The notes below the pieces were generated by a model. The model was given only the letters and a program-made list of their open reading frames with translations. It was not told the origin of the DNA and searched no databases. This document shows positions 4,583-31,250 of a stretch of DNA of 64,000 nt, piece by piece (positions within the stretch are counted from its first letter, which is position 1; the number at the start of each line of letters is the position of its first letter). The stretch comes from Oscillospiraceae bacterium (lineage in GTDB: Bacteria; Bacillota; Clostridia; Oscillospirales; Oscillospiraceae): contig JAFYHU010000003.1 in NCBI GenBank assembly GCA_017538965.1, positions 1 to 64,000 of the forward strand, in the 5' to 3' direction. The position numbers and the translations under genes were made by a program.

Positions 4583-5189
4583 AAATGCTTTTCCCTCCGC
4601 CGCCTCAAACGATGAGGCGGTTCTTTCTTTTCTCCGTGAACGTGGTATTCTTGCAGACGAAAGCATAACGCCACAGCAGGTTGAAGAGAAAAAGCGCAAG
4701 GAGGCATATCATAATACGCTTCTCCTGCTCTCAAACTACAGAAACATTCTCTGGCAGACCGACAGTGAGCTGGACACCATCGCCGCCGAGCTCAACCTCC
4801 CTCTGCAGAAGCTCGACGCTGTTCTGAGCCGGATCGACGCAGAGATCGGCATGGAGAATCGACGCCTCGAGCTTCGTCTGGAAAGGCTGGCCAAGACCCG
4901 CCAGCTCCTGGATCGCATCAACGATGCCCTGACCACCCTCAAATACAAGCCGGATAACGGTCCTCTGCTTTACGATTTGATCTATTTGACCTACATTTCC
5001 GAGGAAAAGCTTCATCAAACAGATGTTCTCTATCGGCTGAACATCTCGAGACGGCATTATTATCGGCTGAAAGAGCAGGCAATCAACATCATTTCTCTCC
5101 GGCTCTGGTCGGTCCCAAGCACAAATATTGACCTCTGGCTTGATCTTGTGTCTATGCTGAGCGGCAGGGCCAAGCCCAGCAGCAGATAA
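4575..5189 (+). CDS. Coiled-coil protein with sigma/ArpU-like C terminus
   Basis: A 204-residue protein starting at ATG 4575 inside the stop region of the previous gene, with AAAGGAG upstream, so the two are probably translationally coupled. The middle is charged and helical. The C-terminal 60 residues (TYISEEKLHQTDVLYRLNIS then RRHYYRLKEQA) resemble the helix-turn-helix tail of phage ArpU/RinA-type transcriptional regulators. It probably acts as a DNA-binding regulator with the preceding protein. This is a similarity by eye only. Confidence 0.6.
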   Translation: MTKNAFPSAASNDEAVLSFLRERGILADESITPQQVEEKKRKEAYHNTLLLLSNYRNILWQTDSELDTIAAELNLPLQKLDAVLSRIDAEIGMENRRLELRLERLAKTRQLLDRINDALTTLKYKPDNGPLLYDLIYLTYISEEKLHQTDVLYRLNISRRHYYRLKEQAINIISLRLWSVPSTNIDLWLDLVSMLSGRAKPSSR

Positions 5190-5194
5190 ACGAC

Positions 5195-5240
5195 ACGGCA
5201 CTCGAACAACCTCAGAGTCATTTCGGGTGCCGTATTCTCT
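5195..5240 (+). terminator. Hairpin after the first plus-strand gene pair
   Basis: ACGGCACTCGAA (5195-5206) pairs with TTCGGGTGCCGT (5222-5233), followed by a pyrimidine-rich but weak T tail. It lies between the convergent ends of the gene at 4575-5189 and the polymerase gene and could terminate both. Confidence 0.45.
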
Positions 5241-5274
5241 CTTCGTTTGGGACAGGGTGTCCGCTCATCTGAAT

Positions 5275-6534
5275 TCACGTTTTGTCCCGCTCGGACTCCT
5301 GTTTGCCCCTGAACTTGCGGGCAACCTGGAGCCCGTCCTTCATCACCGTGCCGCGCTGGATGATATCGGCGCCGAATTTGCTCCGCAAGGCGTCCACCGC
5401 CTTATCCAGCTTCACATCGCGTTCCCGTCTTCCGCTGTCCTCTTCTCCGAAAAGGGACATCTGCCCGCCCTCATCTTCTCTGGTCAGGTTGGAGAGCGCG
5501 ATGCTCATAAGCCGCAGCGGCCTGTGATCTTTCCACAACTCACGGAGAAGCCGTTTCGACAGCTCATAGATTTCCCGCGTGGATTCCATCGGCTGGTCTG
5601 TCTTGCACTGATGCGAGCGGTTTTTGAAGTCCAGATAGCGGATCGATACCGCAACGCAATAGGCCTTTGCCCCGTCACTTCGCATGTGAGCCGAGACACT
5701 GTCCGAAAGAGCCAGAAGGATCGCGTCCGCCGCCTCCAGCGTGGTTACGTTTTCCTCAAGCGTCACGGAATTGCTGTAGCCCTTGGCCTCTTCCGGCTCG
5801 GCACGGACGGGAGAATTGTTAATGCCGTTTGCGTAATTGCGGGCCTGGAGACTCATCTTGTCGCCGAGGATTCTCCGCAGGAGCTCCGGGTCTGCGTGTG
5901 CAAGTTCTCCGATTGTGTAGATATGTTCTTCCCTCAACCGATTTGCGGAAGCGCCGCCCACGAACAGCAGATCCCCCACCGGCAGCGGCCAGAGCTTATC
6001 CGGGATTTCCTCCGGATAGAGCGTGTGTACCCTATCCGGCTTCTCAAAGTCGCTCGCCATCTTGGCACAGAGCTTGTTGCGCCCGATGCCGATATTCACC
6101 GTAAATCCAAGCTCGTCCCGGATCCTGTCCTTGATCGTGTGCGCCAGCGCGACAGGGTCGGGGTACATGTGTCCGGTGCCGGTCATATCCATGAAGCATT
6201 CGTCGATAGAAAACTCCTCTACGACCGGTGCATAGCTGCGGCAGATATCCTTAAATGCCTTGGAACAGGCCGAATACAGCTTGAAATCCGGTTTTGCGAT
6301 CACAAGCTGAGGGCATTTTCTCAGCGCCATGGCGATCGGTTCGCCCGTCTTGATTTTGAACGCCTTCGCCGGGATAGACTTTGCAAGCACAACTCCCCTT
6401 CTGGATTCCGGGTCGCCCCCGATGCAGGATGGAATCAGGCGCAGATCGGGCTCGCCGTTTTTGACGCGCCGCGTTGCCTCCCAGGACAGGAAGGCACTGT
6501 TGACATCCACATGAAAGATAAGCCGTTCATTCAT
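5275..6534 (-). CDS. Y-family DNA polymerase (DinB/UmuC-like)
   Basis: A 419-residue translesion DNA polymerase. The N terminus carries HVDVNSAFLSWEA with the first metal-binding aspartate, and the second catalytic motif reads VEEFSIDECFMDMTG. Helix-hairpin-helix and little-finger regions follow. Length fits Pol IV/UvrX-type enzymes found on conjugative elements and plasmids, where they help repair DNA after single-stranded transfer. The start at 6534 is chosen because GGAGGG lies eight bases upstream; an in-frame ATG 54 bases earlier has no such site. It is divergent from the transfer operon and shares its upstream region. Confidence 0.9.
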   Translation of the reverse strand: MNERLIFHVDVNSAFLSWEATRRVKNGEPDLRLIPSCIGGDPESRRGVVLAKSIPAKAFKIKTGEPIAMALRKCPQLVIAKPDFKLYSACSKAFKDICRSYAPVVEEFSIDECFMDMTGTGHMYPDPVALAHTIKDRIRDELGFTVNIGIGRNKLCAKMASDFEKPDRVHTLYPEEIPDKLWPLPVGDLLFVGGASANRLREEHIYTIGELAHADPELLRRILGDKMSLQARNYANGINNSPVRAEPEEAKGYSNSVTLEENVTTLEAADAILLALSDSVSAHMRSDGAKAYCVAVSIRYLDFKNRSHQCKTDQPMESTREIYELSKRLLRELWKDHRPLRLMSIALSNLTREDEGGQMSLFGEEDSGRRERDVKLDKAVDALRSKFGADIIQRGTVMKDGLQVARKFRGKQESERDKT

Positions 6535-7167: not shown

Positions 7168-9879
7168 TTGCTTGACTGGATCTTTGAAGGCATCGTGACA
7201 TGGATCAGCAGCGTCATGACCTCACTCATGGATGCTGTATCCGGGCTTTTTCTCGATGCGCTCGGCACAGACATGGTGGTCATGGAGGAGTATTTTCCTT
7301 TTGTGACGAAGGCCTTTGGCATTCTCCAGTATACCGCATGGGCGCTCCTTTTTCTCATAACCGCCTGGCAGCTCTTCCGTGCTTTCGGCGGGCCGATCAC
7401 AGACGCAGAGAACCCGCTGACGCTCGTTGCAAGAAGCATTCTCTTTGCCGTGATGATCGGCTATGCCCAGTCCATCTTCCAGATGACGCTGGATATAGCC
7501 CGGGCACCCTATACGGCTCTGATGGAGGTCACCATGACGGCGGAGGACTTTACCTTTGCCGGGATCGAAGAAGCACTGAAAAACGGCCTTGTGACCATTG
7601 TGGCAACCACGTCCATCGTTGGGACGCTGCTGCTTGTGATTCTGGAGATCGCACTTGGCTGGAACTATTTCAAGCTACTGCTTGAGACTGTCGAGCGCTA
7701 TGTGGTGGTCGGTGTCCTCTGTTATACCTCTCCCCTGGCCTTCGCCATGGGCGGCTCGAAAGAGACGAACTCCGTATTCCGCTCCTGGTGCCGCATGGTC
7801 GGCTCCCAACTGATCCTGCTCATTATGAACGTCTGGTTCCTGCGGGCCTTCGGATCGTCCGTCGGCCAGTTTATAGGAAATGGCGGCGCGCTCACAAACG
7901 GTCGGGGAAGCATCTTTCTCTGGCTGTTCTGCGCGCTGGCTTTCCTCAAATGCGCTCAGCGCTTTGACAGCTATCTCTCCTCCATCGGCTTGAACGTCGC
8001 CCAGACCGGGTCCAGTATGGCAATGGAGATGATGATGGCGGCACGGGTGCTCAGCGGTGTCGGCGGAGGACCGAGATCGGCCGGAAGTGTCTTTCGAGGC
8101 TCCGGTGTCGCGGGCAGCTCTGCGACGAGCACGGCTGCCGGGGTTGCCTCCGGATTTGCCAATCGCTTCAAGGGCAATTCTTATGTACGTGACGCTGTGG
8201 TCAATGGCGGTACCCGCATGGGTGCCGGCGGCTCGATCGGGTTTGTGGGCCGTGCCTTCGGAGGGATCGCCGCCAGAAACGGCGCGACACTCTCCGGCGA
8301 ATCCATTTCCTCTGTTGCCTCCCGTCCATCTGCCGTCTCCGGCAGTATTGGCGGAGAGATCGCAGACCGGAGTCTCAAGAACTACATGCCCCAGCTTGGA
8401 AACCGCCAGCTCAAGAACACGCAGATCAGCGGCGGCCGGATCAGTACCACATCGGTCGGCGCGGATGGCAAACAGACTTCTGTGGAGATGTTCAATGCCT
8501 CTCAGTTTGAAAAGCCTGCCGGGCCTCATGCGACGCTGACAGCCTCAGACGGCAGTCAGTGGTATCAGGTGGCAAGCGGACCGGATGCCGCTTCGTTCTA
8601 TGACGCGCCGCATTTCAGCGGCAGCGCCGATGAAAGTGCGCAGGTGGCCTCCTTCTTCCCGGATGCCCCCGACGGAACCGTTCTTCGCAGTGTCGGAGAA
8701 GGCGAGATTCAGGCTACGTCCCCGGACGGGACAAGCTCCATGTGGTATAACAGCGCCATGTTTGAAGAGCCAGACGCTCCCCATTCCATTATGGGTTCTG
8801 CCAACGGCGTGGATTGGTACACCATGCATCCCCATAGTGAAGCGCCCGGTTTTGAATCCGGGTCTGTGGACACATCTCAGTCTGGAGCAACATTTACGGG
8901 GACTTCAGAATCCGGTTTTGGCGAGGCTTCTGTTATCCCATCCGCTCCTGTGGACAACCCGGGCATGGATACCGGCTCTCCCCTGTCTGCACCGTCCGAT
9001 TCTTATTCTTACATGCCGAATACGTCAGGCTTTACGCCGACACCGCCGTTGGAGTCTTCTTCTGAGATATCTGACGCAGCTCTCGGCAATGCCTCCGAAT
9101 CGGTAAGCCTTCCCGCAGATGAGCCGGTTATCGACATGGGCACTCCCCTGCCCAATTCTTCTGTAGAAAACGCTTATTCGTCGGATGATGGAGTTTCCCC
9201 CGTTATGCCGAGAGCGGATAGCGGTTCTCAGTCTTTCTACATGGATTCTGTGTCCGGTTCAAACGACTCTGCATCTTATGCATCCGACGCGCCTTCGGCA
9301 GTCTTTGTCCCTGTGCCGGATTCCAGCTATCATGCTGAAACGCCCGAGGCTCCTGTGGCAACACCCACGTCGGATTATTCGAGCCCTGTTTCTCAATCTG
9401 ACGCTGCCTTTACCCCTGCTGAAAGCACACCTAACACCGACACTGCGTCTTTCTTTACGGATTCCGAGGTCTTTTCGGACTTTTCGGCAGCTTACAACCA
9501 GGCGCTGTTCAAAAACTTCATGCCCGGCTATGAGCAGCCGATCACATCCGTCGATGACTCTGGACGCAGTGATGGCCACTTTGAGGTACGTCATGCGGAC
9601 GGCTCCGGTACCATGTTCTTCGACAGCACACGTTATTCTGAACCCCGCGGAGACTTCCAGACGCTGGAGGACAGCCGCGGCGGCAAGTGGTACGCCGTAT
9701 CCGGGCAGCCTGCTGTTGAGCGGCGGCCTGTTTATGAGAACGGCAAGCCGGTCTATGACGGCGAAAACGTCAAAACAATCTCTGTGGAAACCGTGCGCTA
9801 CCGCAATCTCCCCGCAAAACGCAGTTCTCCCGCACCGCGCCGCCAGCGCGACACTAAGTCACCTAAGAAGAAAACATGA
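7168..9879 (+). CDS. VirB6/TrbL-like channel protein with long Ser-rich tail
   Basis: A 903-residue protein. The first 290 or so residues hold five or more membrane helices and resemble VirB6/TrbL, the polytopic inner channel component of type IV secretion. From about residue 295 a Gly/Ser/Ala-rich linker begins, followed by a low-complexity tail rich in Ser, Pro, Asp and Thr. The tail holds three related copies of a domain with the pattern DGS-x-WY (near residues 455, 545 and 830). The start is TTG 7168 after GGAGGTGAT. The tail is unusually long for the family and may be surface exposed or cytoplasmic. Confidence 0.8.
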   Translation: MLDWIFEGIVTWISSVMTSLMDAVSGLFLDALGTDMVVMEEYFPFVTKAFGILQYTAWALLFLITAWQLFRAFGGPITDAENPLTLVARSILFAVMIGYAQSIFQMTLDIARAPYTALMEVTMTAEDFTFAGIEEALKNGLVTIVATTSIVGTLLLVILEIALGWNYFKLLLETVERYVVVGVLCYTSPLAFAMGGSKETNSVFRSWCRMVGSQLILLIMNVWFLRAFGSSVGQFIGNGGALTNGRGSIFLWLFCALAFLKCAQRFDSYLSSIGLNVAQTGSSMAMEMMMAARVLSGVGGGPRSAGSVFRGSGVAGSSATSTAAGVASGFANRFKGNSYVRDAVVNGGTRMGAGGSIGFVGRAFGGIAARNGATLSGESISSVASRPSAVSGSIGGEIADRSLKNYMPQLGNRQLKNTQISGGRISTTSVGADGKQTSVEMFNASQFEKPAGPHATLTASDGSQWYQVASGPDAASFYDAPHFSGSADESAQVASFFPDAPDGTVLRSVGEGEIQATSPDGTSSMWYNSAMFEEPDAPHSIMGSANGVDWYTMHPHSEAPGFESGSVDTSQSGATFTGTSESGFGEASVIPSAPVDNPGMDTGSPLSAPSDSYSYMPNTSGFTPTPPLESSSEISDAALGNASESVSLPADEPVIDMGTPLPNSSVENAYSSDDGVSPVMPRADSGSQSFYMDSVSGSNDSASYASDAPSAVFVPVPDSSYHAETPEAPVATPTSDYSSPVSQSDAAFTPAESTPNTDTASFFTDSEVFSDFSAAYNQALFKNFMPGYEQPITSVDDSGRSDGHFEVRHADGSGTMFFDSTRYSEPRGDFQTLEDSRGGKWYAVSGQPAVERRPVYENGKPVYDGENVKTISVETVRYRNLPAKRSSPAPRRQRDTKSPKKKT

Positions 9880-9883
9880 TCTC

Positions 9884-9916
9884 AAGGCAGTCGGGCTCAG
9901 GTCCGGCTGCCTTTTT
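9884..9916 (+). terminator. Intra-operon hairpin with T tract
   Basis: AAGGCAG (9884-9890) pairs with CTGCCTT (9907-9913) and ends in five Ts that run directly into the GGAGGTGAG ribosome binding site of the next gene. The position suggests attenuation or an RNA-processing/stability site between the VirB6-like gene and the hydrolase gene. Confidence 0.55.
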
Positions 9917-9930
9917 GGAGGTGAGCATTT

Positions 9931-11922
9931 ATGGCTGAGCCGGACAAGCGTCAACTCGGTGACGGCTCCGACAGCTTTTCAAACGCGGCATCAAACCTTT
10001 CCCGTGCCGTCAACACCATGCGACAGCAGGCCTCGGCCTCCTCTGCCGGAGCAGCCGCGGCCGGTGCCGCGAAAACCGGCAAGGCCATTGCCGGTGCAGC
10101 AAAAGGCGCTGCCGCCGCTGGCCCATGGGGTGCACTTGCCGCTGCCGCATGGTCTGCGCGTCATACCCTGTACAAGATTCTCATCTGCACTGCACTCTTT
10201 TTCACTTTTATCATTGTGACGATCGTTTCTCTCCCCTCCATTGTCACCAACGGCATATTCGGCCTGAACGGGACAAAGCCGGTGGAAGGCGCAACTCTTA
10301 CGGATACATACAGTGAAATGGCAAAGGCAGTCTCCTCCGTCGTGGATTACGGCTACGAATTATCTCTTGCCAGGGTGGACCGCCTGATTGAGGAAGGCGG
10401 ATGTGATTACAAGCTCTCCATGGATTCCCTCATCAACTACGGGCACAGCTCTGCCGGATACGATACCTGCTATGTTCTGGCCGCCTACTCGGCGTCGATG
10501 GAACAGCAGAACACCTCCAAAGAGGACATGATGGCAAAGCTCCAGCGTGTGGCGGACTCCATGTTCCCAGTGACAAGCGAGCGGAAAGAGCATGAGCATC
10601 TGATCCCGGTCACCTATTACAGATATGAGCCTGTAACGCTGACGGTCATATCCTCCGCCGAGATCGTGGACTTCAACGGAGATGATCCTGTTTACAGCTA
10701 TGAGACCGAAACGCGGACCTATTACACGCCCGTTGAGGATCTCAGCAGTGAGGAGGATATCATGGTCCCTGCCTATCGGGAAGTAACCGTGTATCTTCCT
10801 ATATATAATAACGGCTCCATCACAAGCTACTCCACGGCTACTTACTTTGAGGCCGCCGGTGAAGAGATGATCTCGCCGACAATCGAGATGATCCCGTACC
10901 TCGAATGCACGATCCATCCCTTTGATAACTCTGTGATCAATCAGGCATTCGGTGTGAATCCCGATGCGACATACAGCCAGTTCCAAGTCACATATGGTGA
11001 AGCCATTCAAAACATGGCCAACGCCCTGAAGATGACGCTTTACGGCTCTCTGGAGGGCGGCAAGGCTGTCCCCCTTACGGATGAGGAGCTGATTGCCTTT
11101 GTCAACGCCCAGGATTGCAGCCCCGCGCGGAAACACATCATCTCGACCGCACTTTCCCTTGTGGGCAAGGTTCCTTATTTCTGGGGCGGCAAATCCGCTC
11201 CCGGCTGGAACGACGCCTGGAACACGCCGCGGCTCGTCACCTCTGCTGGTTCCTCCAGCACCGGCACGATCCGGCCCTACGGACTTGACTGCAGCGGCTT
11301 TACCTCCTGGGTCTACAATACCGCCGTGGGCGTGGAGATCGGTGCCGGCACCTCCGGTCAGTATCCCAACACGGAGGGAATCGACGCCTCCGAGCTTCTG
11401 CCCGGCGATCTCGCTTTCCTTGCGGGAGATGAAGGATGGGAGCATGTCCTGATCTTTGCCGGTTATGACGTCGGCGGGAACAGGGCCTGGGTCCACTGCA
11501 CAGCCGGCAGCGGCGTTGTCTTCAACACGCCGGACTATGAAGGCTCCCTGGTTTTCAGAAGGCTCACCATTGTGGACTATGACGCGCCGGTATCCGGCGG
11601 GAATGTCTGGGGCGAGCCGCTTTCGGAGCTCACAGTCATTGTGACCCATTATTGTCCCTGCCCCAAGTGCTGCGGAGAGAACTCCGATGGCATCACGGCC
11701 AGCGGCAAGTATGCCCAGCGCGGCATGGTGGCCATGTCCAGCTATTATCCCTTCGGTACGCAGATCATGATCAACGGCGTCATGTATACCGTTGAAGACC
11801 GCGGCGGCACCGGGATCGAAGAAAACATCCACCGTGTGGATATCTTTGTTCCCGACCATCAAGAGGCCCTGCGTCTCGGCACCTACAACACAACCGCATA
11901 CATCTACAGGATGGGGTGGTAA
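9931..11922 (+). CDS. Conjugative NlpC/P60 endopeptidase with 3D domain
   Basis: A 663-residue membrane-anchored cell-wall hydrolase that would open peptidoglycan for the transfer channel (VirB1/CwlT role). An Ala-rich cytoplasmic N terminus is followed by one membrane helix near residues 75-105 and a central domain of unknown type. The NlpC/P60 domain has Cys in LDCSGF (about 454), His in WEHVLIFAG (about 505) and a third polar residue in WVHC. The C-terminal 95 residues form a 3D/RlpA-like beta barrel with VEDRGG and HRVDIFVPD. The ATG at 9931 follows GGAGGTGAG. Confidence 0.9.
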   Translation: MAEPDKRQLGDGSDSFSNAASNLSRAVNTMRQQASASSAGAAAAGAAKTGKAIAGAAKGAAAAGPWGALAAAAWSARHTLYKILICTALFFTFIIVTIVSLPSIVTNGIFGLNGTKPVEGATLTDTYSEMAKAVSSVVDYGYELSLARVDRLIEEGGCDYKLSMDSLINYGHSSAGYDTCYVLAAYSASMEQQNTSKEDMMAKLQRVADSMFPVTSERKEHEHLIPVTYYRYEPVTLTVISSAEIVDFNGDDPVYSYETETRTYYTPVEDLSSEEDIMVPAYREVTVYLPIYNNGSITSYSTATYFEAAGEEMISPTIEMIPYLECTIHPFDNSVINQAFGVNPDATYSQFQVTYGEAIQNMANALKMTLYGSLEGGKAVPLTDEELIAFVNAQDCSPARKHIISTALSLVGKVPYFWGGKSAPGWNDAWNTPRLVTSAGSSSTGTIRPYGLDCSGFTSWVYNTAVGVEIGAGTSGQYPNTEGIDASELLPGDLAFLAGDEGWEHVLIFAGYDVGGNRAWVHCTAGSGVVFNTPDYEGSLVFRRLTIVDYDAPVSGGNVWGEPLSELTVIVTHYCPCPKCCGENSDGITASGKYAQRGMVAMSSYYPFGTQIMINGVMYTVEDRGGTGIEENIHRVDIFVPDHQEALRLGTYNTTAYIYRMGW

Positions 11923-11926
11923 GCAT

Positions 11927-12310
11927 ATAGACAACAACGAATTTAATAATGTCTTCGCCATTCCCGCAAACTATACAGACTCCGGCAAGCTCTTCGGCGG
12001 GATGCTGGAAACGCGAAACACGGTGGAAACCGTGTTCCTGCTCGCCCTTGTGGGCTATCCGGAGCTGTTCTGGCTGTCCATGCCGGCCATGATGCACATT
12101 GTGCTCATGGTGCTGACGCTCATTCCCCTGGCTGTCATCTCCCTGATGGGCATCGACGGGGACTCTCTGCTTCAGTATCTCGGCCATATCATCCGATTCT
12201 TTGTGAATCGGCGAAGACTACATTTCAGGAGGATCGGCTATCACTATGACCCGAAACGCCTCAAGAAACACAAAAAGAAAAAAGCAAAAAAGCAGCACAG
12301 AGCTGCTTGA
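11927..12310 (+). CDS. PrgI/TcpE-like conjugation membrane protein, unusual start
   Basis: About 127 residues with the PrgI-family layout: a short N terminus (AIPANYTDSGKLFGG), two adjacent membrane helices and a very basic tail. In Gram-positive type IV systems this gene precedes virB4, as here. The expected start region has no ATG, GTG or TTG: GGGGTGG lies seven bases before an ATA codon at 11927, four bases after the stop of the previous gene. The first in-frame ATG inside would remove the conserved N terminus, and upstream ATGs lie inside the hydrolase gene. I therefore place the start at the ATA, with doubt. Confidence 0.65.
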   Translation: MDNNEFNNVFAIPANYTDSGKLFGGMLETRNTVETVFLLALVGYPELFWLSMPAMMHIVLMVLTLIPLAVISLMGIDGDSLLQYLGHIIRFFVNRRRLHFRRIGYHYDPKRLKKHKKKKAKKQHRAA

Positions 12311-14798
12311 GTTCGTCCAGGATTTCATCCCGGTCAGGAGTATCCATCACGGGATCATTGAAACAACGGACAATCGCTATATCAAGATCCTGGAGATCGA
12401 GCCCATCAACTTCATGCTGCGCTCGGAGGAGGAGCAGTTCAATATCATCTCCTCCTTTGCCTCCTGGCTGAAGATTTCTCCCCAGCACCTGCAGTTCAAG
12501 AGCATCACACGGAAAGCCGACTCCGATCGGCATGTCCGGCTGCTGCGTCAGGATCTGGAGGGCGAAACCAACGAGGAATGCCGCCGTCAGGCCGAAGGCT
12601 ATATCCGCTTTGTAAGAGATGTGGGCAACCGTGAAGCCCTGACCCGGCGTTTTTTCCTTATTTATCAGTATGAGGAGCAGCGGCGGGGCGACAGTGAGGA
12701 CTTTGGGCTGGTCTACAGCACGATTCAGACGGTGGAGCAAAATGCCCGCGCCTATTTTATGCAGTGCGGCAACACCATTGTGCAGCACAAGGATCCCGAT
12801 CAGGCTACGGCGGAGATCCTGTACATGTTCTTCAACCGCCGTTCCTGTGTGGAAGAACCCTTTGAATCCAGGGTAAACCGCGTTGTCGTGGACAGCATGG
12901 CTGCGCGAAACCTTGTCATCGGGGTCGATGCTGTCCCCAAGATCCGGATAAACCACTTCATCTCCCCACGCGGCATGGACTTCACCCATAATAACTACAT
13001 CATCATGGACGGGCTTTATTACTGCTTTCTTTACATACGCGGCAACGGCTACCCCTCCCGCGTGAGGGCCGGGTGGATGTCCACACTCATCAACGCCGGG
13101 GACGGGATCGATATTGACGTACATCTGCACCGGGAAAACCGCAGCAAGACCATCGATAAAGTGGCCCAGCGCATTCGCCTCAACCGCACCAAGCTCAAGA
13201 GCATGCAGGATACCAGCACGGACTATGAGGAGCTGACAAACTCCATTCAGGCGGGCTACTACATCAAGCAGGGCATCGCCAACTACAACGAGGATCTGTT
13301 TTACCTCTCCGTTTTCGTGACTGTATCCGCCAAAAGCCTCGATGAGCTCATGTGGAGAAAGCAGCAGATGGTGGACATGCTCAAGTCTATGGATATGTAT
13401 GTGAGTGACTGCCGCTTCCAGCAGGAGGCGGCTTTTTCTTCGGTCATGCCCTTTCTGAAGCTTGACCCAAAGTTGGACCGCAAATCCCGCCGCAACGTCC
13501 TGACCAGCGGCGCGGCTTCCTCCTACATGTTCACGAGCTTTGAGATGTCTGACGATGCCGGTGTCCTTCTGGGCATCAACCGGCACAATAACTCCCTCTG
13601 CATCGTGGATCTCTTCAACACGAAGAAAAATAAGAACGCAAATCTCAATATCCTCGGGACCTCCGGCGCCGGAAAGACCTTTACCATGCAGCTTCTCGCC
13701 CTGCGTATGCGTATGCGCGGGATTCAGTGCTTTATCGTGGCGCCGATCAAGGGCCATGAGTTTCGCCGTGCCTGCCGTCAGGTGGGCGGCGAGTTTATCC
13801 GGATTGCGCCCGGCTCCCCGCACTGCATCAACATCATGGAGATTCGGCAGACCATCTCCCCGGAGATGGAGCTCATCGATGAGCTGGATTACAGTGAGCT
13901 GGACTCGATGCTGGCCCGCAAGATCCAGCAGCTGATGATCTTCTTCTCCCTGCTGATCCCGGACATGAACAATGAAGAGGAGCAGATGCTCGATGAAGCG
14001 CTGATCCGCACCTATGCCAAGTTCGGCATCACCCACGAAAACGACTCGCTCTATCTCAGCAAAAGCAGCTTTCCCCCACGGCTCAAGACCATGCCGACGA
14101 TCGGCGACCTGCATGAGGAGCTGCTGACGAACCCTATGACCCAGCGGCTTGCGGTGATCATCAGCCGCTTTGTGACCGGCTCCGCCCAGAGCTTCAATCA
14201 GCAGACCAACGTAGACTTGACGAACAAGTACATTGTACTGGATCTCTCGGAATTGAAGGGCAAGCTTCTGCCGGTCGGCATGTTCATCGCGCTCGACTAT
14301 GTGTGGGACACAGTCAAGGCCGATCGCACGAAGAAGAAAGCGATCATGATCGATGAGATCTGGCAGCTCATCGGTGCAAACTCCAACCGTATGGCGGCGG
14401 AGTTTTGTCTGACGATCTTCAAAACGATCCGCGGCTTCGGCGGGGCGGCAATCTCCGCGACACAGGATCTTTCGGACTTCTTCGGTCTGGAGGACGGCAA
14501 GTACGGCAGAGCCATCATCAACAACTCCAAGAACAAGATCATTCTGAATCTGGAACCGGATGAAGCCAAGACGGTGCAGGAGGTTTTGAAGCTCACAAAA
14601 ACCGAGCTTCGATCAATCACCCAGTTTGAACGAGGCGAGGCGCTGATCTGCTCCAACAATAACAAGGTCCCCGTGGTCATCAAGGCCTCCAAGGAGGAAC
14701 AGGAGATGATCACGACTGATCGCGCTGAGCTGGAAGCAATACTAAAAGAAAAGAGCAGCAGTCCATCCATCTCCGGTCGTGATCAAAAGCTCATTTAA
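12246..14798 (+). CDS. VirB4/TraE-family conjugation ATPase
   Basis: An 850-residue ATPase that energises assembly and substrate passage of the type IV secretion channel. The N-terminal VirB4 domain is followed by Walker A GTSGAGKT near residues 470-477 and Walker B AIMIDE near 699-704, with the conserved SATQDLSDF motif further on. Length is standard. The gene overlaps the PrgI-like gene by 65 bases, and GGAGG lies 15 bases before the ATG, so translation is probably coupled. Strongest marker of the conjugation system. Confidence 0.95.
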   Translation: MTRNASRNTKRKKQKSSTELLEFVQDFIPVRSIHHGIIETTDNRYIKILEIEPINFMLRSEEEQFNIISSFASWLKISPQHLQFKSITRKADSDRHVRLLRQDLEGETNEECRRQAEGYIRFVRDVGNREALTRRFFLIYQYEEQRRGDSEDFGLVYSTIQTVEQNARAYFMQCGNTIVQHKDPDQATAEILYMFFNRRSCVEEPFESRVNRVVVDSMAARNLVIGVDAVPKIRINHFISPRGMDFTHNNYIIMDGLYYCFLYIRGNGYPSRVRAGWMSTLINAGDGIDIDVHLHRENRSKTIDKVAQRIRLNRTKLKSMQDTSTDYEELTNSIQAGYYIKQGIANYNEDLFYLSVFVTVSAKSLDELMWRKQQMVDMLKSMDMYVSDCRFQQEAAFSSVMPFLKLDPKLDRKSRRNVLTSGAASSYMFTSFEMSDDAGVLLGINRHNNSLCIVDLFNTKKNKNANLNILGTSGAGKTFTMQLLALRMRMRGIQCFIVAPIKGHEFRRACRQVGGEFIRIAPGSPHCINIMEIRQTISPEMELIDELDYSELDSMLARKIQQLMIFFSLLIPDMNNEEEQMLDEALIRTYAKFGITHENDSLYLSKSSFPPRLKTMPTIGDLHEELLTNPMTQRLAVIISRFVTGSAQSFNQQTNVDLTNKYIVLDLSELKGKLLPVGMFIALDYVWDTVKADRTKKKAIMIDEIWQLIGANSNRMAAEFCLTIFKTIRGFGGAAISATQDLSDFFGLEDGKYGRAIINNSKNKIILNLEPDEAKTVQEVLKLTKTELRSITQFERGEALICSNNNKVPVVIKASKEEQEMITTDRAELEAILKEKSSSPSISGRDQKLI

Positions 14799-14802
14799 GC
14801 CA

Positions 14803-15030
14803 GTACGCATTGTATGCGCATTATGTGCGTTTTCAATGCGCATTACCCCACTTGCGCGCACTGTATGCGTTTCTAATGCGCATTAATCTACTTGTGCGCA
14901 TTGTATGCGTTTTCAATGCGCATTAATCTACCTGTGCGCATTGTATGCGCATTATGTGCGTTTTTAATACACATTACCCCACTTGTGCGCATTGTACGCG
15001 CATTGTATGCGTTTTCAATGCGCACACCCA
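14803..15030. repeat. Array of five palindromic 40/51-bp repeats
   Basis: Five related units lie head to tail: 14803-14853 (51 bp), 14854-14893 (40), 14894-14933 (40), 14934-14984 (51) and 14985-15030 (46, diverged end). The core is the 9-bp inverted repeat TGCGCATTG/CAATGCGCA around a TATGCGTTTT loop, with linkers TAATCTACTT or TACCCCACTT. The long units differ from the short ones by an 11-bp insertion, and the unit with the insertion keeps its linker type. The array fills the gap between virB4 and the next gene and is not coding. Confidence 0.85.
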
Positions 15031-15060
15031 ACACCGAAGAACCTTTAAGGGGGTGATCAT

Positions 15061-15609
15061 CTGCTGCTTGAAGATGAATCCCATGTGATCAAATGGCTCT
15101 CTCAATATGGTGCCCTGCCTAAAACTCAGCTTATCAGGATGCTGCGCAAGCCGCCAAGGACAGCGGAGAAGATTCTGGACAACCTCAAACGGGACATGCG
15201 GATCGCGGACATCGGAGACGGTTATTACTGCGCTCTTGACCCGTTGGCAAAGCCCGATCAGCGCATTGTCCTGGCGGTCTGGGTGCTGCTGCAATTCATA
15301 GACTTTGTGGAGCCTATGGCCCATTATCCGGCCGTTTACCCGTCGCAGCTCTTCTTTTTGAAAGAAAACATGGGTTATGAGATCGTCGTACTGTACGAAG
15401 GCGAGAAAAATCTTCTGAGACTGCTTCAGCCGCAGGAGGATCTGAAATACGTCATTGTCCTTCCCCGTATATCCATGGTTGCTGAATTGCGGCTTCCGAA
15501 GGCCCCCTGTCTCTTCGCAACAGTCGAATTTCAGGGGGCGGATGAGCCAAATGTACTTTTTTATACAGAGGAGATACTTCAGGATGCTGCCAACCAACAC
15601 CTTTACTGA
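15061..15609 (+). CDS. DUF5697-like mobile-element protein
   Basis: A protein of about 182 residues resembling the DUF5697 family that accompanies Firmicutes conjugative elements: an N-terminal winged-helix-like stretch (LSQYGALPKTQLIRMLRKPP), then VEPMAHYPAVYPSQLFFLKE and an acidic C terminus. Function unknown. AAGGGGGTGAT lies a few bases before CTG codons at 15061/15064, while the first ordinary start, GTG 15085, has no ribosome binding site and would cut into the conserved N terminus. I use CTG 15061. The 3' end overlaps the next gene by 26 bases. Confidence 0.7.
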   Translation: MLLEDESHVIKWLSQYGALPKTQLIRMLRKPPRTAEKILDNLKRDMRIADIGDGYYCALDPLAKPDQRIVLAVWVLLQFIDFVEPMAHYPAVYPSQLFFLKENMGYEIVVLYEGEKNLLRLLQPQEDLKYVIVLPRISMVAELRLPKAPCLFATVEFQGADEPNVLFYTEEILQDAANQHLY

Positions 15610-16255
15610 TGTCCTGTCTTCGATTGAGCAGAAAATCAACCGTCTGAATGCCGAAACGCGCCTGATCCGGCAGCTCCTCGATCAAGGCTATCTGGAAGAG
15701 GCCTATTCTGTATCTCTTCGTCTGGCAAGGTATGCGGAGCAGACCACACTGTTGACCCGCAAGCTCCCTGTCTACACCGGCAAGCCCAGCGCCTATCAGG
15801 ATGTTGAGGATGTAGTATGCAGCGCTGTTCCCGTTAAGATTTCCATAACAAAGGAAAATTGGTTTTATGTAAATCTTCCAACCTTGCTTCCGAAGAAGGA
15901 AATGGAGTCGCGCAGTTATATCCGCGCCTACCTCTACCCGGCTCTGCAGAGATATTTTTCCGACCATGAACCGCTTCACTATGCGGATGCCGTACTCATC
16001 TTCCGCCATGTATATGACCGGAAACGGCCTGAGCGCCGGAAGCGGGATCACGATAACATTGAGGTCAATACAGTGGCCGATGCCATTGCCCTCTTTGTTT
16101 TGACCGATGACGGCCCGGCGGTATGCTCTCACTACTACTGCAGCGCAGCCGGCGATGAGGACTGCACAGAAGTCTTCGTCGTGCCCCGGTGGGACTTCCC
16201 TCTCTGGCTCGAACAGGAGCAAAAAGTTACGAAAAACGCTGCTCAAGTCAGTTGA
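15584..16255 (+). CDS. Element-specific protein of unknown function (DUF6100-like)
   Basis: A 223-residue soluble protein. The ATG at 15584 follows an AGGAGAT...CAGG region and lies within the end of the previous gene. The first 40 residues are helical (LSSIEQKINRLNAETRLIRQ), the rest mixed. RRKRDHDNIEVNTVADAIA is a notable polar segment that resembles the metal-binding DHDN motif of RusA-type Holliday junction resolvases. That resemblance is by eye. It belongs to the transfer operon. Similar genes are commonly found beside DUF5697 genes in related elements. Confidence 0.65.
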   Translation: MLPTNTFTDVLSSIEQKINRLNAETRLIRQLLDQGYLEEAYSVSLRLARYAEQTTLLTRKLPVYTGKPSAYQDVEDVVCSAVPVKISITKENWFYVNLPTLLPKKEMESRSYIRAYLYPALQRYFSDHEPLHYADAVLIFRHVYDRKRPERRKRDHDNIEVNTVADAIALFVLTDDGPAVCSHYYCSAAGDEDCTEVFVVPRWDFPLWLEQEQKVTKNAAQVS

Positions 16256-16418
16256 AAACAGGTGCAAAACTCCATGCCGAATTTTCTTCATTTTCTGTAC
16301 CTGTTTTTAGCGGTGGTTTTTGTCTGTAAATTAGGCTATTGGGCCGCTCTGGCACTTCACTTTTTCGGTCAAGAGGAGAAACCATTGACCGATTTTTCTT
16401 TATACAAGAGGATACGCA

Positions 16419-17564
16419 ATGATGTACTTTTCTCCCGGCAGTCATCTCTTCCGTCTCGTGACCGTCCTCTCTCTTGTGGGCGAGTATCCGACGACTTCGC
16501 TGTATCTTCTCGGAGACAGACAGGAGCTCGGCAGGCTGGTTCAGAAGCTGACACAGCCTCAGCTGATCCGGAACTCTGCGACCGGTGAAAAGCTGTGCGT
16601 GAAGGTGATCAACCTCTCAGGCAAGTCACCCTTTACGACCATTCGCCTGTCAAACTTCGCCCTTCCCTTGCTCGACTGGAGCGGGACGCGGGAATACTAC
16701 GAATCCAGATTCACCCGCTCAGGCATGTCAAGCAGCAAAACGCATCATGAGCGCTCTTATCGGGTGGCCGAGACTGCTGTAATGCTCCTTCGGGCAGGCA
16801 TCGAGTGCAGACCATGGATGCTTCCGGCGCTTCAGATGCGGCGTCGGGCGCTGATCATAGATCGCCCGATGGCGCTTCTGGCAAGGGATGTCAAGCAAGT
16901 CGAGCCCGAATCAGTGAACAAAACCAAATACGCCCGCTATACAGGCGCTCTGTTTACACCCGGAAGCTGCATGGTCATCTATAATACCCGAAATGCCGTC
17001 ATGCGCTGGAATGGTGAGGGTGAATTTAAGGCAAGGCAGGATCTGATTCAGATTGCCCGGAACAATTCTGGATGCTCGCAGATAGACACTGCAGTTCTTC
17101 TCGGGCAGGATTACCCGGTTGCGCTTGACACGATACGCTGCAAAGACACCTGGAAAGGAAAACTGCAGCGGTTCGACAGCATTTATCCCCATGTCTGCTT
17201 TGTCCCCCTGCAGGATTTTGGCGTAAGACAGCTTGCAATCATGCAGCTGCCGGACTGGAAAGAACAGATCCTGGATTTGCTCTTTGATGAGGATACACGA
17301 TCAGATAACAAGGGTGCGTTTGAATATGACGCCATTGAGGATAACATCTATCTATTCTCATTTCTTGACGGAGACATTGCCAGACTGATTCGCTTTCATG
17401 ATGCCATACGGAATACGAAGCTGCATTGCAAAGTCATTGCGTATCCCGAGCAGATCAGCTTTCTGCAAAGCTGCCTTCCGGCTTCTGTTGAATACTGGGA
17501 TATACCCATTGACCGGATCGAACAGGGGCTTGAGGTAAAAGCAAGGAGTCTGCTGGATGGATAA
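16419..17564 (+). CDS. Unknown conjugative-element protein, 381 residues
   Basis: A soluble protein without a family I can name. It starts at tandem ATGs (16419, 16422) behind AGAGGAT and overlaps the coupling-protein gene by 8 bases, so both are likely made together. The N terminus looks like a winged helix (FRLVTVLSLVGEYPTTSLYL), and the region SSKTHHERSYRVAETAVMLL recalls replication-relaxation/MobC-type accessory proteins that help a relaxase at oriT. Position directly upstream of virD4 fits such a role, but this is inference. Confidence 0.65.
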   Translation: MMYFSPGSHLFRLVTVLSLVGEYPTTSLYLLGDRQELGRLVQKLTQPQLIRNSATGEKLCVKVINLSGKSPFTTIRLSNFALPLLDWSGTREYYESRFTRSGMSSSKTHHERSYRVAETAVMLLRAGIECRPWMLPALQMRRRALIIDRPMALLARDVKQVEPESVNKTKYARYTGALFTPGSCMVIYNTRNAVMRWNGEGEFKARQDLIQIARNNSGCSQIDTAVLLGQDYPVALDTIRCKDTWKGKLQRFDSIYPHVCFVPLQDFGVRQLAIMQLPDWKEQILDLLFDEDTRSDNKGAFEYDAIEDNIYLFSFLDGDIARLIRFHDAIRNTKLHCKVIAYPEQISFLQSCLPASVEYWDIPIDRIEQGLEVKARSLLDG

Positions 17565-19458
17565 GAAGAAGCCATTACTCTTAGCAGTAATCACCATTCC
17601 CGGCCTTGCTGTTCTTGCTTACCTGTCCGGTCTGCTGGCGCAGTTGCTTGCAAACTATGCGCTCTGGCAGGAGCTCGGCGGCATGAACAGTCCCGAATCG
17701 ATCCAGGCACCAAGCCTTGATCCGGGCGTGTGCTTCCCTGCTCTGCTCTCGATTCACGGTCTGAAAAGTGTCCTGCTCATACTGGGAATCCTCAGCGCAA
17801 TTATCCTCTATATCCGTTTTCATGACCGATTTGGCAGCGGGAGCGAAGATCCGCGCGGCTTCGACACCAGCAAGTCCGGCATCTACGGGACCGCATCCTG
17901 GATGACCGAGTCTGAGATGCGGGAGATTCTCGAGATCAATCCGATCGACAAGGCAGAAGGCACCATTCTCGGTGAGTACCGTGGGAAAGCGGTCTGTATG
18001 CCAAAGGACACCAGACTTAACCGGCACATCGCCATCTTCGGCGCATCCGGCACAATGAAGTCCCGCGCCATCATCCGCAACGCTCTGTTTCAGGATATCA
18101 AGCGCGGCGAGTCTGTGATCATCACAGACAGCAAGGGCGAGCTATACGCGGATACTTCGGAGCTGTTCCGCAAAAACGGGTATGACGTGAAGGTTTTTAA
18201 CCTGGTAAACCCGGAACACGGCGATTCCTGGAACTGTATGGCGGATCTCAACGGCGACACCCTCATGGCCCAGATCCTCACCAATGTCATCATCGGCAAT
18301 ACAAGCTCCGGAAAAGGCGATCATTTCTGGGACGGCGGTGAGGGTAATCTTCTCAAAGCCCTGATATTGTATGTGGATCAGGATCCAACCCGCGATCCGG
18401 AAGAAAAACACCTGAGCGCAGCTTACAGGCTGCTGACCCAGAATACCGAGCAGCAGCTCACGGCGATCTTTGACAGGCTGCCGCTGAGTCATCCTGCCCG
18501 ACCCCCATACTCACTTTTTGCACAGGCCAGCGAGACGGTGAAATCCGGGATCATTATTGGACTCGGCACGCGTCTGCAGGTCCTGCAGAATGAGGCTGTA
18601 CAGCGGATCACAAGTCAGTCTGACATTGACCTGACTGCGCCCGCGAAGCACAAATGCGCTTACTATATCGTATTAAGCGATCAGGACTCCAGCATGGCGT
18701 TCCTGTCTTCCCTGTTCTTCTCTTTCCTCTTCATTAAACTGACCAGATACGCTGACAGCCGTCCTTCAGGCGCCTGCGACGTACCTGTCAATCTCATCCT
18801 CGATGAGTTCAATAACATCGGTCGTATCGGCGGCGCTGCCGACGGCTCGGACTTTGCACGCACTCTTAGCGTGATCCGATCCCGAGATATCCGGGTCATG
18901 CTGGCCATTCAGAGTCTTGGACAGCTCCAAAACCGCTATGCCAACAATCTCTGGGCAGAAATCATCGGCAACTGCGATATTCAACTCATGCTCGGCTGCA
19001 CCGACGGTGTGACAGCCGAGTATTTTTCTGCCCGCAGCGGAGATATGAGTGTCACGATCAAGTCCACCATGACCGTAAGGCAGACGATGGCCGTTGCCCA
19101 GATGATCCCCCAGTATCGCCAAACAGAAGGCCAGGGACGGAGGCGGCTGCTGACCCCGGATGAGGTTCTGCGGCTGCCAAACACGGATCTGCTTTGTGTG
19201 ATCCGCGGCTGCAATATGCTCAGACTGAAAAAGCTGGATTACACCGGTCACCGTATGTCCAAGGAGCTGCAGCATTGCTCGATTCTGGACTATACGCCCA
19301 TGATCCATGTGCCCAGAAAACCCGAACTTCCTCAGCAGCCGTCCATGCCGAGTTCTGATGCCGCCTTACCGGAACAATCTGGCTCTGACGGTGAGAAGAA
19401 AGTGAAGAAGAAACGAGAGAAACTGTACAGCTCTTCTAAGCCACCCCAAAATTTTTAA
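17557..19458 (+). CDS. VirD4/TraG-type coupling protein
   Basis: A 633-residue type IV coupling protein that would bring the relaxosome to the channel. Two N-terminal membrane helices (about residues 8-30 and 65-88) precede the ATPase domain with Walker A FGASGTMKS near 161-169 and Walker B LILDEFNN near 413-420. ITDSKGELY and the C-terminal TraG-like region are also present. AAGGAG lies upstream of ATG 17557. The Walker A has Thr-Met where many ATPases have Gly-x-Gly, which is usual in Firmicutes TcpA/VirD4 relatives. Confidence 0.93.
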   Translation: MDKKKPLLLAVITIPGLAVLAYLSGLLAQLLANYALWQELGGMNSPESIQAPSLDPGVCFPALLSIHGLKSVLLILGILSAIILYIRFHDRFGSGSEDPRGFDTSKSGIYGTASWMTESEMREILEINPIDKAEGTILGEYRGKAVCMPKDTRLNRHIAIFGASGTMKSRAIIRNALFQDIKRGESVIITDSKGELYADTSELFRKNGYDVKVFNLVNPEHGDSWNCMADLNGDTLMAQILTNVIIGNTSSGKGDHFWDGGEGNLLKALILYVDQDPTRDPEEKHLSAAYRLLTQNTEQQLTAIFDRLPLSHPARPPYSLFAQASETVKSGIIIGLGTRLQVLQNEAVQRITSQSDIDLTAPAKHKCAYYIVLSDQDSSMAFLSSLFFSFLFIKLTRYADSRPSGACDVPVNLILDEFNNIGRIGGAADGSDFARTLSVIRSRDIRVMLAIQSLGQLQNRYANNLWAEIIGNCDIQLMLGCTDGVTAEYFSARSGDMSVTIKSTMTVRQTMAVAQMIPQYRQTEGQGRRRLLTPDEVLRLPNTDLLCVIRGCNMLRLKKLDYTGHRMSKELQHCSILDYTPMIHVPRKPELPQQPSMPSSDAALPEQSGSDGEKKVKKKREKLYSSSKPPQNF

Positions 19459-31048: not shown

Positions 31049-31250
31049 GAAAAGAGACCTGCGTCCAGGCTCTCGATACTTCGGAAGAGCTCCCGGAGTC
31101 AGACTCCTTCAGGTGGAAGGAGGAATCGTTACAGACGCATGAAGAATGACGTCTACAATGTCGTGGGTCTCTTGTTCAAAGCCGTAAAGGCACAATAACG
31201 CTTACAGAGTCATCAACCGGGTTTCGTCCCGGTCTGATGGCTCTGTTTGC
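31049..31250 (+). ncRNA. Structured noncoding RNA, about 200 nt
   Basis: An 8-bp closing helix AAGAGACC (31052-31059) / GGTCTCTT (31166-31173) encloses TGCGTC/GACGCA (31060-31065 with 31134-31139), a GCTCT/AGAGC hairpin, and two mutually exclusive hairpins: GGAGT/ACTCC and CTCCTTC/GAAGGAG. A 3' tail with a GCCGTAAAGGC hairpin follows, then a long terminator stem (31204-31246). It has its own promoter and no ORF. Overall size and layout recall the raiA-type or similar Firmicutes RNA motifs, but I cannot assign a class by eye. It could also act as a leader for the downstream zinc-finger gene. Confidence 0.65.

Follow-up and report, generated by a model that had tools for sequence, protein, structure and literature searches.

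A repeat array upstream of the DUF5697 gene in an Oscillospiraceae transfer operon: a probable expanded form of a recurrent leader box, possibly a protein-binding site

Introduction

What is a regular array of short, partly palindromic repeats doing between two genes of a transfer operon? The question is raised by the window analysed here, a stretch of 64,000 nucleotides from an Oscillospiraceae bacterium (part of contig C40 in a genome of 3.39 Mb), in which such an array separates the gene of a VirB4-like transfer ATPase from that of a DUF5697 protein. An earlier note on this DNA had proposed several roles, among them a multi-hairpin mRNA stabiliser, a protein-binding array and an oriT-like locus. 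The array is undescribed in the literature searched, and DUF5697 is not named there. In the following, the array is compared with the leaders of related DUF5697 genes, and the possible roles are weighed where the evidence bears on them.

The array and its surroundings

The presence of a repeat array behind the VirB4-like gene was borne out. Tandem Repeats Finder returned periods of 40 (3.4 copies) and 51 (2.5 copies), and repeated 7-mers, counted on both strands, amounted to 343 pairs versus 17.8 in dinucleotide shuffles. Five head-to-tail units can be read directly from the sequence (Table 1). Their lengths had been given as 51, 40, 40, 51 and 46 bp, of which the first four hold; the last unit measures 44 bp. 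A 9-bp inverted repeat had been ascribed to every unit, but only units 3 and 5 have two perfect arms (TGCGCATTG and CAATGCGCA); in each of the remaining three at least one arm has diverged. The 11-bp difference between long and short units, taken for an extension of one arm, proved instead to be one additional copy of an 11-bp sub-repeat. Each unit consists of 11-mers resembling RTRCGYATTNN, three or four in tandem and in most units followed by a 7-bp spacer, giving 40 as 3x11+7 and 51 as 4x11+7; unit 1 reads GTACGCATTGT ATGCGCATTAT GTGCGTTTTCA ATGCGCATTAC, then CCCACTT.

Table 1. Positions in the window of the array, its units and the neighbouring genes
Feature	Position	Strand	Remarks
VirB4-like transfer ATPase	12246..14798	+	
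Hypervariable segment	14744..15041	.	No DNA homology to loci L027 or L028
Array	14803..15028	+	18 tandem 11-mers in five groups; 7-bp spacer after four groups
Unit 1	14803..14853	+	51 = 4x11+7
Unit 2	14854..14893	+	40 = 3x11+7
Unit 3	14894..14933	+	40; perfect 9-bp inverted repeat 14895-14922, 10-nt loop
Unit 4	14934..14984	+	51
Unit 5	14985..15028	+	4x11, without spacer; perfect 9-bp arms 14986-15024, 21-nt loop; 3' end AATGCGCACA
Shine-Dalgarno of DUF5697, AAGGGGG	15047..15053	+	Also in relatives
DUF5697 (PF18954, E 3.6e-32)	15061..15609	+	Weakly predicted N-terminal winged helix; probable CTG start; candidate binder
DUF6100 open reading frame	15455..16255	+	Provisional start
Conserved 381-aa protein	16419..17564	+	Window copy without Pfam family
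VirD4-like coupling protein (CD1115 family)	17557..19458	+	

The DUF5697 gene probably starts at the CTG at 15061-15063, behind the AAGGGGG at 15047-15053. The CTG is common to two close relatives (L027 and L028), and most relatives have ATG, GTG or TTG there. The gene order VirB4-DUF5697-DUF6100-hypothetical-VirD4-S1-pilins-sortases is found as here in plasmid pMM35_02 of Vescimonas fastidiosa, which has a box leader of its own. By eye, a hairpin, GGCAGTCGGGCTCAGGTCCGGCTGCC and then a T-run, was also seen at 9850-9931, in the leader of an NlpC/P60 gene inside the operon.

The array is single-copy in its own genome, and no DNA match to it was found in the other 294 of the 295 genomes of the order that were searched. 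Rfam 15, at gathering score, left it unmatched; the sole match in the window is a DUF3268 RNA (RF02966) at 31050-31169, shortly 5' of a DUF3268 gene. At the DNA level, plasmids gave no match and phages a single one, a 7.7-kb record labelled 'Bacteriophage sp.' that shares the VirB4-DUF5697 junction and is probably a mobile element filed in the wrong place. At the protein level, similarity extended to three phage records and two plasmid records. Viral contigs searched with VirB4 (as single protein and as alignment), with a DUF5697 alignment and with an exact 22-mer yielded nothing confirmed, the 22-mer being absent.

A recurrent box in front of DUF5697

A scan for VirB4 relatives provided 80 loci (the best 80 of 151), from which, together with the window, a script cut 61 leaders, 51 of them unique. 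These leaders revealed a recurrent short box with the core TRCGYA and the full palindrome AATRCGYATT; 22 of the 51 unique leaders from the window and these best 80 of 151 loci contain the latter, with 36 copies in all versus 0.13 in shuffles. In the usual leader, three boxes begin near positions -61, -43 and -25 relative to the start codon, at intervals of 18-19 bp, and the last box, often AATACGCACA, lies a few nucleotides 5' of the Shine-Dalgarno AAGGAGGTG. When sites matching AATRYRYATT at 8 or more of 10 positions are taken, a value of 18 or 19 accounts for 66 of the 108 consecutive spacings that do not exceed 70 nt. All four combinations occur at the R/Y positions of the box, three of them in a single distant locus (L023), which is compatible with a palindromic site bound by a dimer. 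No earlier description of this leader family was found.

The window array ends in AATGCGCACA, much like the AATACGCACA that forms the last box in many relatives, and it is therefore read as an expansion of a three-box leader. On these grounds of sequence, the array would be an overgrown local form of the recurrent DUF5697 leader box, derived from a three-box ancestor.

The leaders gave little sign of an ordinary promoter. No promoter-like word stands among the 30 commonest 6-mers and 8-mers of the 51 leaders, and a consensus promoter scan of the array found no site on the plus strand and three promoter-like sites (9-10 of 12) on the minus strand, along with one terminator-like site at 14945-14961. 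Over the 8-kb region both counts are at the shuffled level (promoter-like, 5 versus 5.5; terminator-like, 6 versus 6.8).

The boxes are linked to the DUF5697 gene. This was assessed in the 90 nt upstream of each gene, a box being TACGCA, TGCGTA, TACGTA, TGCGCA, TACTCA or TGAGTA. At least two boxes are present in 35 of 59 unique DUF5697 leaders, one in eight and none in 16, whereas of 209 leaders of five neighbouring genes taken together (NlpC, VirB4, DUF6100, the 381-aa gene and VirD4), 0 have at least two boxes and 8 have a single one. Among the 16 boxless leaders, those of L027, L028 and L077 have GTAC-centred variants and others have displaced or diverged copies; no box was visible on inspection in L064, L067, L090, L093 and L105. 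Further, where 497-2773 nt separate VirB4 from DUF5697 (eight loci), six loci have two boxes within 110 nt 5' of DUF5697 (L084, L085, L087, L092, L099 and L100); the exceptions are L104, with three boxes at the VirB4 end, and the boxless L093. The boxes thus adjoin the gene of the protein that may bind them, as is expected of an autoregulatory operator (35/59 versus 0/209; 6/8 separated loci). No DUF5697 is visible in 12 of the best 80 of 151 loci, ten of which extend less than 900 nt beyond VirB4; the two with about 4 kb after VirB4 have two boxes (L047) or none (L055). Where DUF5697 stands in other contexts, 250 nt hold zero or one box, both after VirD4-S1 (L108, L111 and L119) and in other arrangements (L120-L123 and L126).

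Behind more distant VirB4 genes, DUF5697 leaders are also repetitive, with other words: AAACGTT in L116, ACGTTTA in L117, GGCGTCA in L016 and L017, and AATACTC with ACGCGTA in L118. In L023, whose VirB4 is 37% identical, 13 TRCGYA boxes, 8 of them within TTGTRCGYACAA, are spaced 21-43 bp apart and precede a very divergent DUF5697 homologue (hhalign probability 95.3, E 2e-8, 141 columns). Of 19 longer arrays picked and cut by hand, 18 are repetitive (p<0.05) but only four exceed chance in 8-bp palindromes (p<0.06), so that palindromy was rejected as a universal feature of the arrays. Two other distant DUF5697 leaders (L103 and L063) show a long hairpin, TACTCATAA / TTATGAGTA, with flanks GGGCGTT / AACGCCC and fold z of -6.5 and -5.5.

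Turnover between close relatives

The exact 40/51 array is not conserved. In L027 and L028 the 5.5-6.5 kb before this segment and the 2.7-3.8 kb after it are 93.7-95.8% identical to the window, these lengths being set by the extent of the retrieved loci. Homology nevertheless ends at 14743 and restarts at 15042 (L027) or 15047 (L028), with unrelated sequence from about VirB4 codon 833 to the DUF5697 Shine-Dalgarno. The L027 segment has ATGTACAT palindromes and that of L028 has AATGTACATT-like copies, the two being different from each other as well. Absence of the array from close relatives, which the earlier note had regarded as evidence against a function, is therefore what is seen for the 40/51 array, gone at about 95% DNA identity; other repeated, partly palindromic words are nonetheless found in its place.

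Comparison over longer stretches places this segment among the breaks of the element. The G669 relative (L129-L133), compared with the window over 3.6-32.7 kb, has three breaks: the array segment, a 2.4-kb insertion at 5174-5290, and about 75 bp in place of about 120 bp at 9163-9286, in a Ser/Ala-rich stretch of a 903-aa open reading frame. In the G668 relative (L127 and L128) the array segment is the only break within a shorter overlap, 3.6-17.8 kb. It seems unusual for a mating-pore operon that non-coding sequence should turn over much faster than the surrounding transfer genes while a putative binding core recurs.

Such turnover could be that of a repeat-prone spacer which grew neutrally, leaving the multiplied form without function. 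Tandem 11-mers are prone to slippage, the 40/51 array was found in one genome only, its exact 22-mer is missing from the viral contigs, and relatives with three boxes or none exist. Other lineages (L029, L058, L118 and L023) also have expanded arrays at this place, which argues against such a reading, and neutral drift does not explain a contrast of 35/59 with 0/209; we consider it improbable.

DNA or RNA as the ligand

A recurrent word directly upstream of a Shine-Dalgarno may act in the DNA or in the mRNA. In the latter case, the boxes would set DUF5697 translation, either by forming hairpins or by offering a single-stranded motif to a protein or a small RNA. The main facts in favour of an RNA role are the position beside the Shine-Dalgarno, the last box ending a few nucleotides 5' of it and starts peaking at -25, -43 and -61; the orientation of the boxes in short leaders, 67 AC versus 15 GT; and the window's own fold, with z of -6.4 on the transcribed strand versus -2.7 on the antisense strand. 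In this fold the Shine-Dalgarno region pairs with the array spacer TTACCCC.

Several results weigh on the other side. The spacer TTACCCC is absent from the L027 and L028 leaders. Over 65 leaders the antisense strand folds equally well, with a mean z of -1.75 versus -1.43 for the transcribed strand and 27 leaders below -2 versus 20. Compensating changes in paired arms, which the earlier note had named as support for function, do not exceed shuffles: of 46 adjacent box pairs, 13 are fully complementary, versus 10.7 when shuffled, with 0.22 of the shuffles at or above the observed number. Translational control through the boxes is held to be unlikely.

The same folding bears on a role in mRNA stability or processing, with the array as a multi-hairpin element between virB4 and the genes that follow. 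The window array does fold strongly; however, the arrangement found most often for adjacent boxes, AC followed by AC (17 of 46, 17-19 nt apart), pairs incompletely, and in six of the eight loci with an inserted gene the boxes stand before DUF5697 rather than at the 3' end of virB4. A stabiliser is scarcely probable.

Covariation of the kind lacking for the leader boxes is clear in another hairpin of the operon, at 16363-16393, 5' of the 381-aa gene. This conserved hairpin, with a loop that is mostly AAAGAGAGCAGTCA, has no Rfam match. Nineteen sequences, 18 of them distinct, were hand-picked from 50 unique leaders (17 of 35 matches to the loop pattern and 2 of 15 non-matches, the window and L029). 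Paired cells make up 86.8% versus 74.0% in shuffles, and changes on both sides number 20 versus 7.9 (0 of 500 shuffles in each case). Two of the five measures are at the shuffle level, namely double-change pairs (4 versus 3.5) and further pair types (9 versus 8.3).

The spacing of the boxes in two expanded arrays, L023 and L029, points to DNA. Their 18 spacings fit periods of 10.5-11 best (R 0.70), with a phase of about 0 at 10.5, and over periods of 9-14 a fraction of 0.0006 of random spacing sets was equally good; the two arrays had been selected after inspection for clean palindromic boxes, and the phasing is shown in these two only. The common spacing of 18-19 bp does not correspond to whole turns of the helix. 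A helical-phase test on the whole set also gave a best period of 10.5, but was dropped as evidence because the dominant 18-nt spacing sets the phase. Since boxes follow the helix in two expanded arrays and pairs do not covary, double-stranded DNA is favoured as the form in which the boxes would be recognised. Of the roles offered in the earlier note, the protein-binding array is thus best supported, and the RNA-hairpin role is weakened by the folding of the 65 leaders and by the lack of box covariation, though the window's transcribed strand does fold better.

Candidate binder and comparison with known systems

The reading we place first, tentatively and at a little less than an even chance, is that the array consists of double-stranded-DNA binding boxes of the DUF5697 5' leader, serving a regulator encoded by the element and most likely DUF5697 itself. 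The boxes would have been multiplied and homogenised into 11-mers within the 40/51-bp units in the window element. They would be occupied by a dimeric DNA-binding protein of the element, with the predicted winged helix of DUF5697 as the likeliest candidate, and their occupancy may adjust expression of DUF5697-DUF6100-X-VirD4, or a complex may assemble there. Regulation would be the outcome of binding.

DUF5697 appears the best candidate binder through the linkage of its gene to the boxes and through a weakly predicted winged helix. The signal is weak for XylR (E 0.017), and the winged-helix families TrmB (best E 0.0064) and MarR (E 0.049) are each matched by two of 51 members. The DUF5697 proteins of L027 and L028 have six differences each from that of the window, of which one, I25L, lies in the predicted winged-helix part. 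The stretch taken as the recognition helix is unchanged in both, while the box centre has gone from CG to TA. As the protein is near-identical in all three elements, changes in the box centre would either be tolerated or be read by another protein.

Iteron and multi-box operator arrays of plasmids likewise place short boxes, repeated at nearly constant intervals, next to the gene that encodes a DNA-binding protein. In contrast to these, no replication initiator is recognised here, and box number and sequence vary between close relatives. A partition site is not favoured, because the ParM gene lies about 28 kb from DUF5697 in pMM35_02.

An oriT normally lies beside a relaxase gene. A Pfam scan of 44 distinct open reading frames of the window matched no relaxase family, and PF03432 is matched once in the genome, on a different contig (C46). 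The suggestion of an oriT-like locus retains some probability, but no relaxase is recognised nearby. The closest analogue of the boxes is nevertheless of this kind. A study of plasmid pCW3 of Clostridium perfringens describes TcpK, a winged-helix protein of 102 aa that binds tandem 9-nt boxes (GGAACTTTA) in oriT (PMC6137059). Both systems would combine a winged-helix protein of the conjugation region, weakly predicted in the case of DUF5697, with short tandem DNA boxes adjoining its gene (PMC6137059). The boxes described here differ in being palindromic (TRCGYA), 5' of the gene, in the middle of an operon and without a recognised relaxase, and TcpK, which is deposited in the PDB, was not among the PDB sequences that a profile search listed for DUF5697. 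By analogy with TcpK, a winged-helix accessory protein on the boxes could position an unrecognised relaxase. The location inside the transfer operon and the rapid turnover agree with such a relaxosome site; the missing adjacent relaxase gene and the boxless leaders of L064, L067, L105 and L137, in which the VirB4-DUF5697 junction is intact, do not, and this role is rather improbable.

A second parallel is TraN of pIP501. It is a winged-helix protein of a Gram-positive transfer operon and a candidate repressor, proposed to bind DNA at a site near oriT and repress transfer (PMC4981023).

Implications

In a more far-reaching reading, which we regard as very doubtful, the array would be a fast-evolving, element-specific site in widespread conjugative elements of Clostridia, combining the DUF5697 operator with a loading site for transfer by an unrecognised relaxase. 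If this were true, concerted evolution, by which elements about 95% identical came to carry arrays that look unrelated, would allow co-resident elements to recognise their own DNA. The box family itself links DUF5697, an uncharacterised gene of the transfer operon, with a specific candidate target sequence, and makes its function directly testable.
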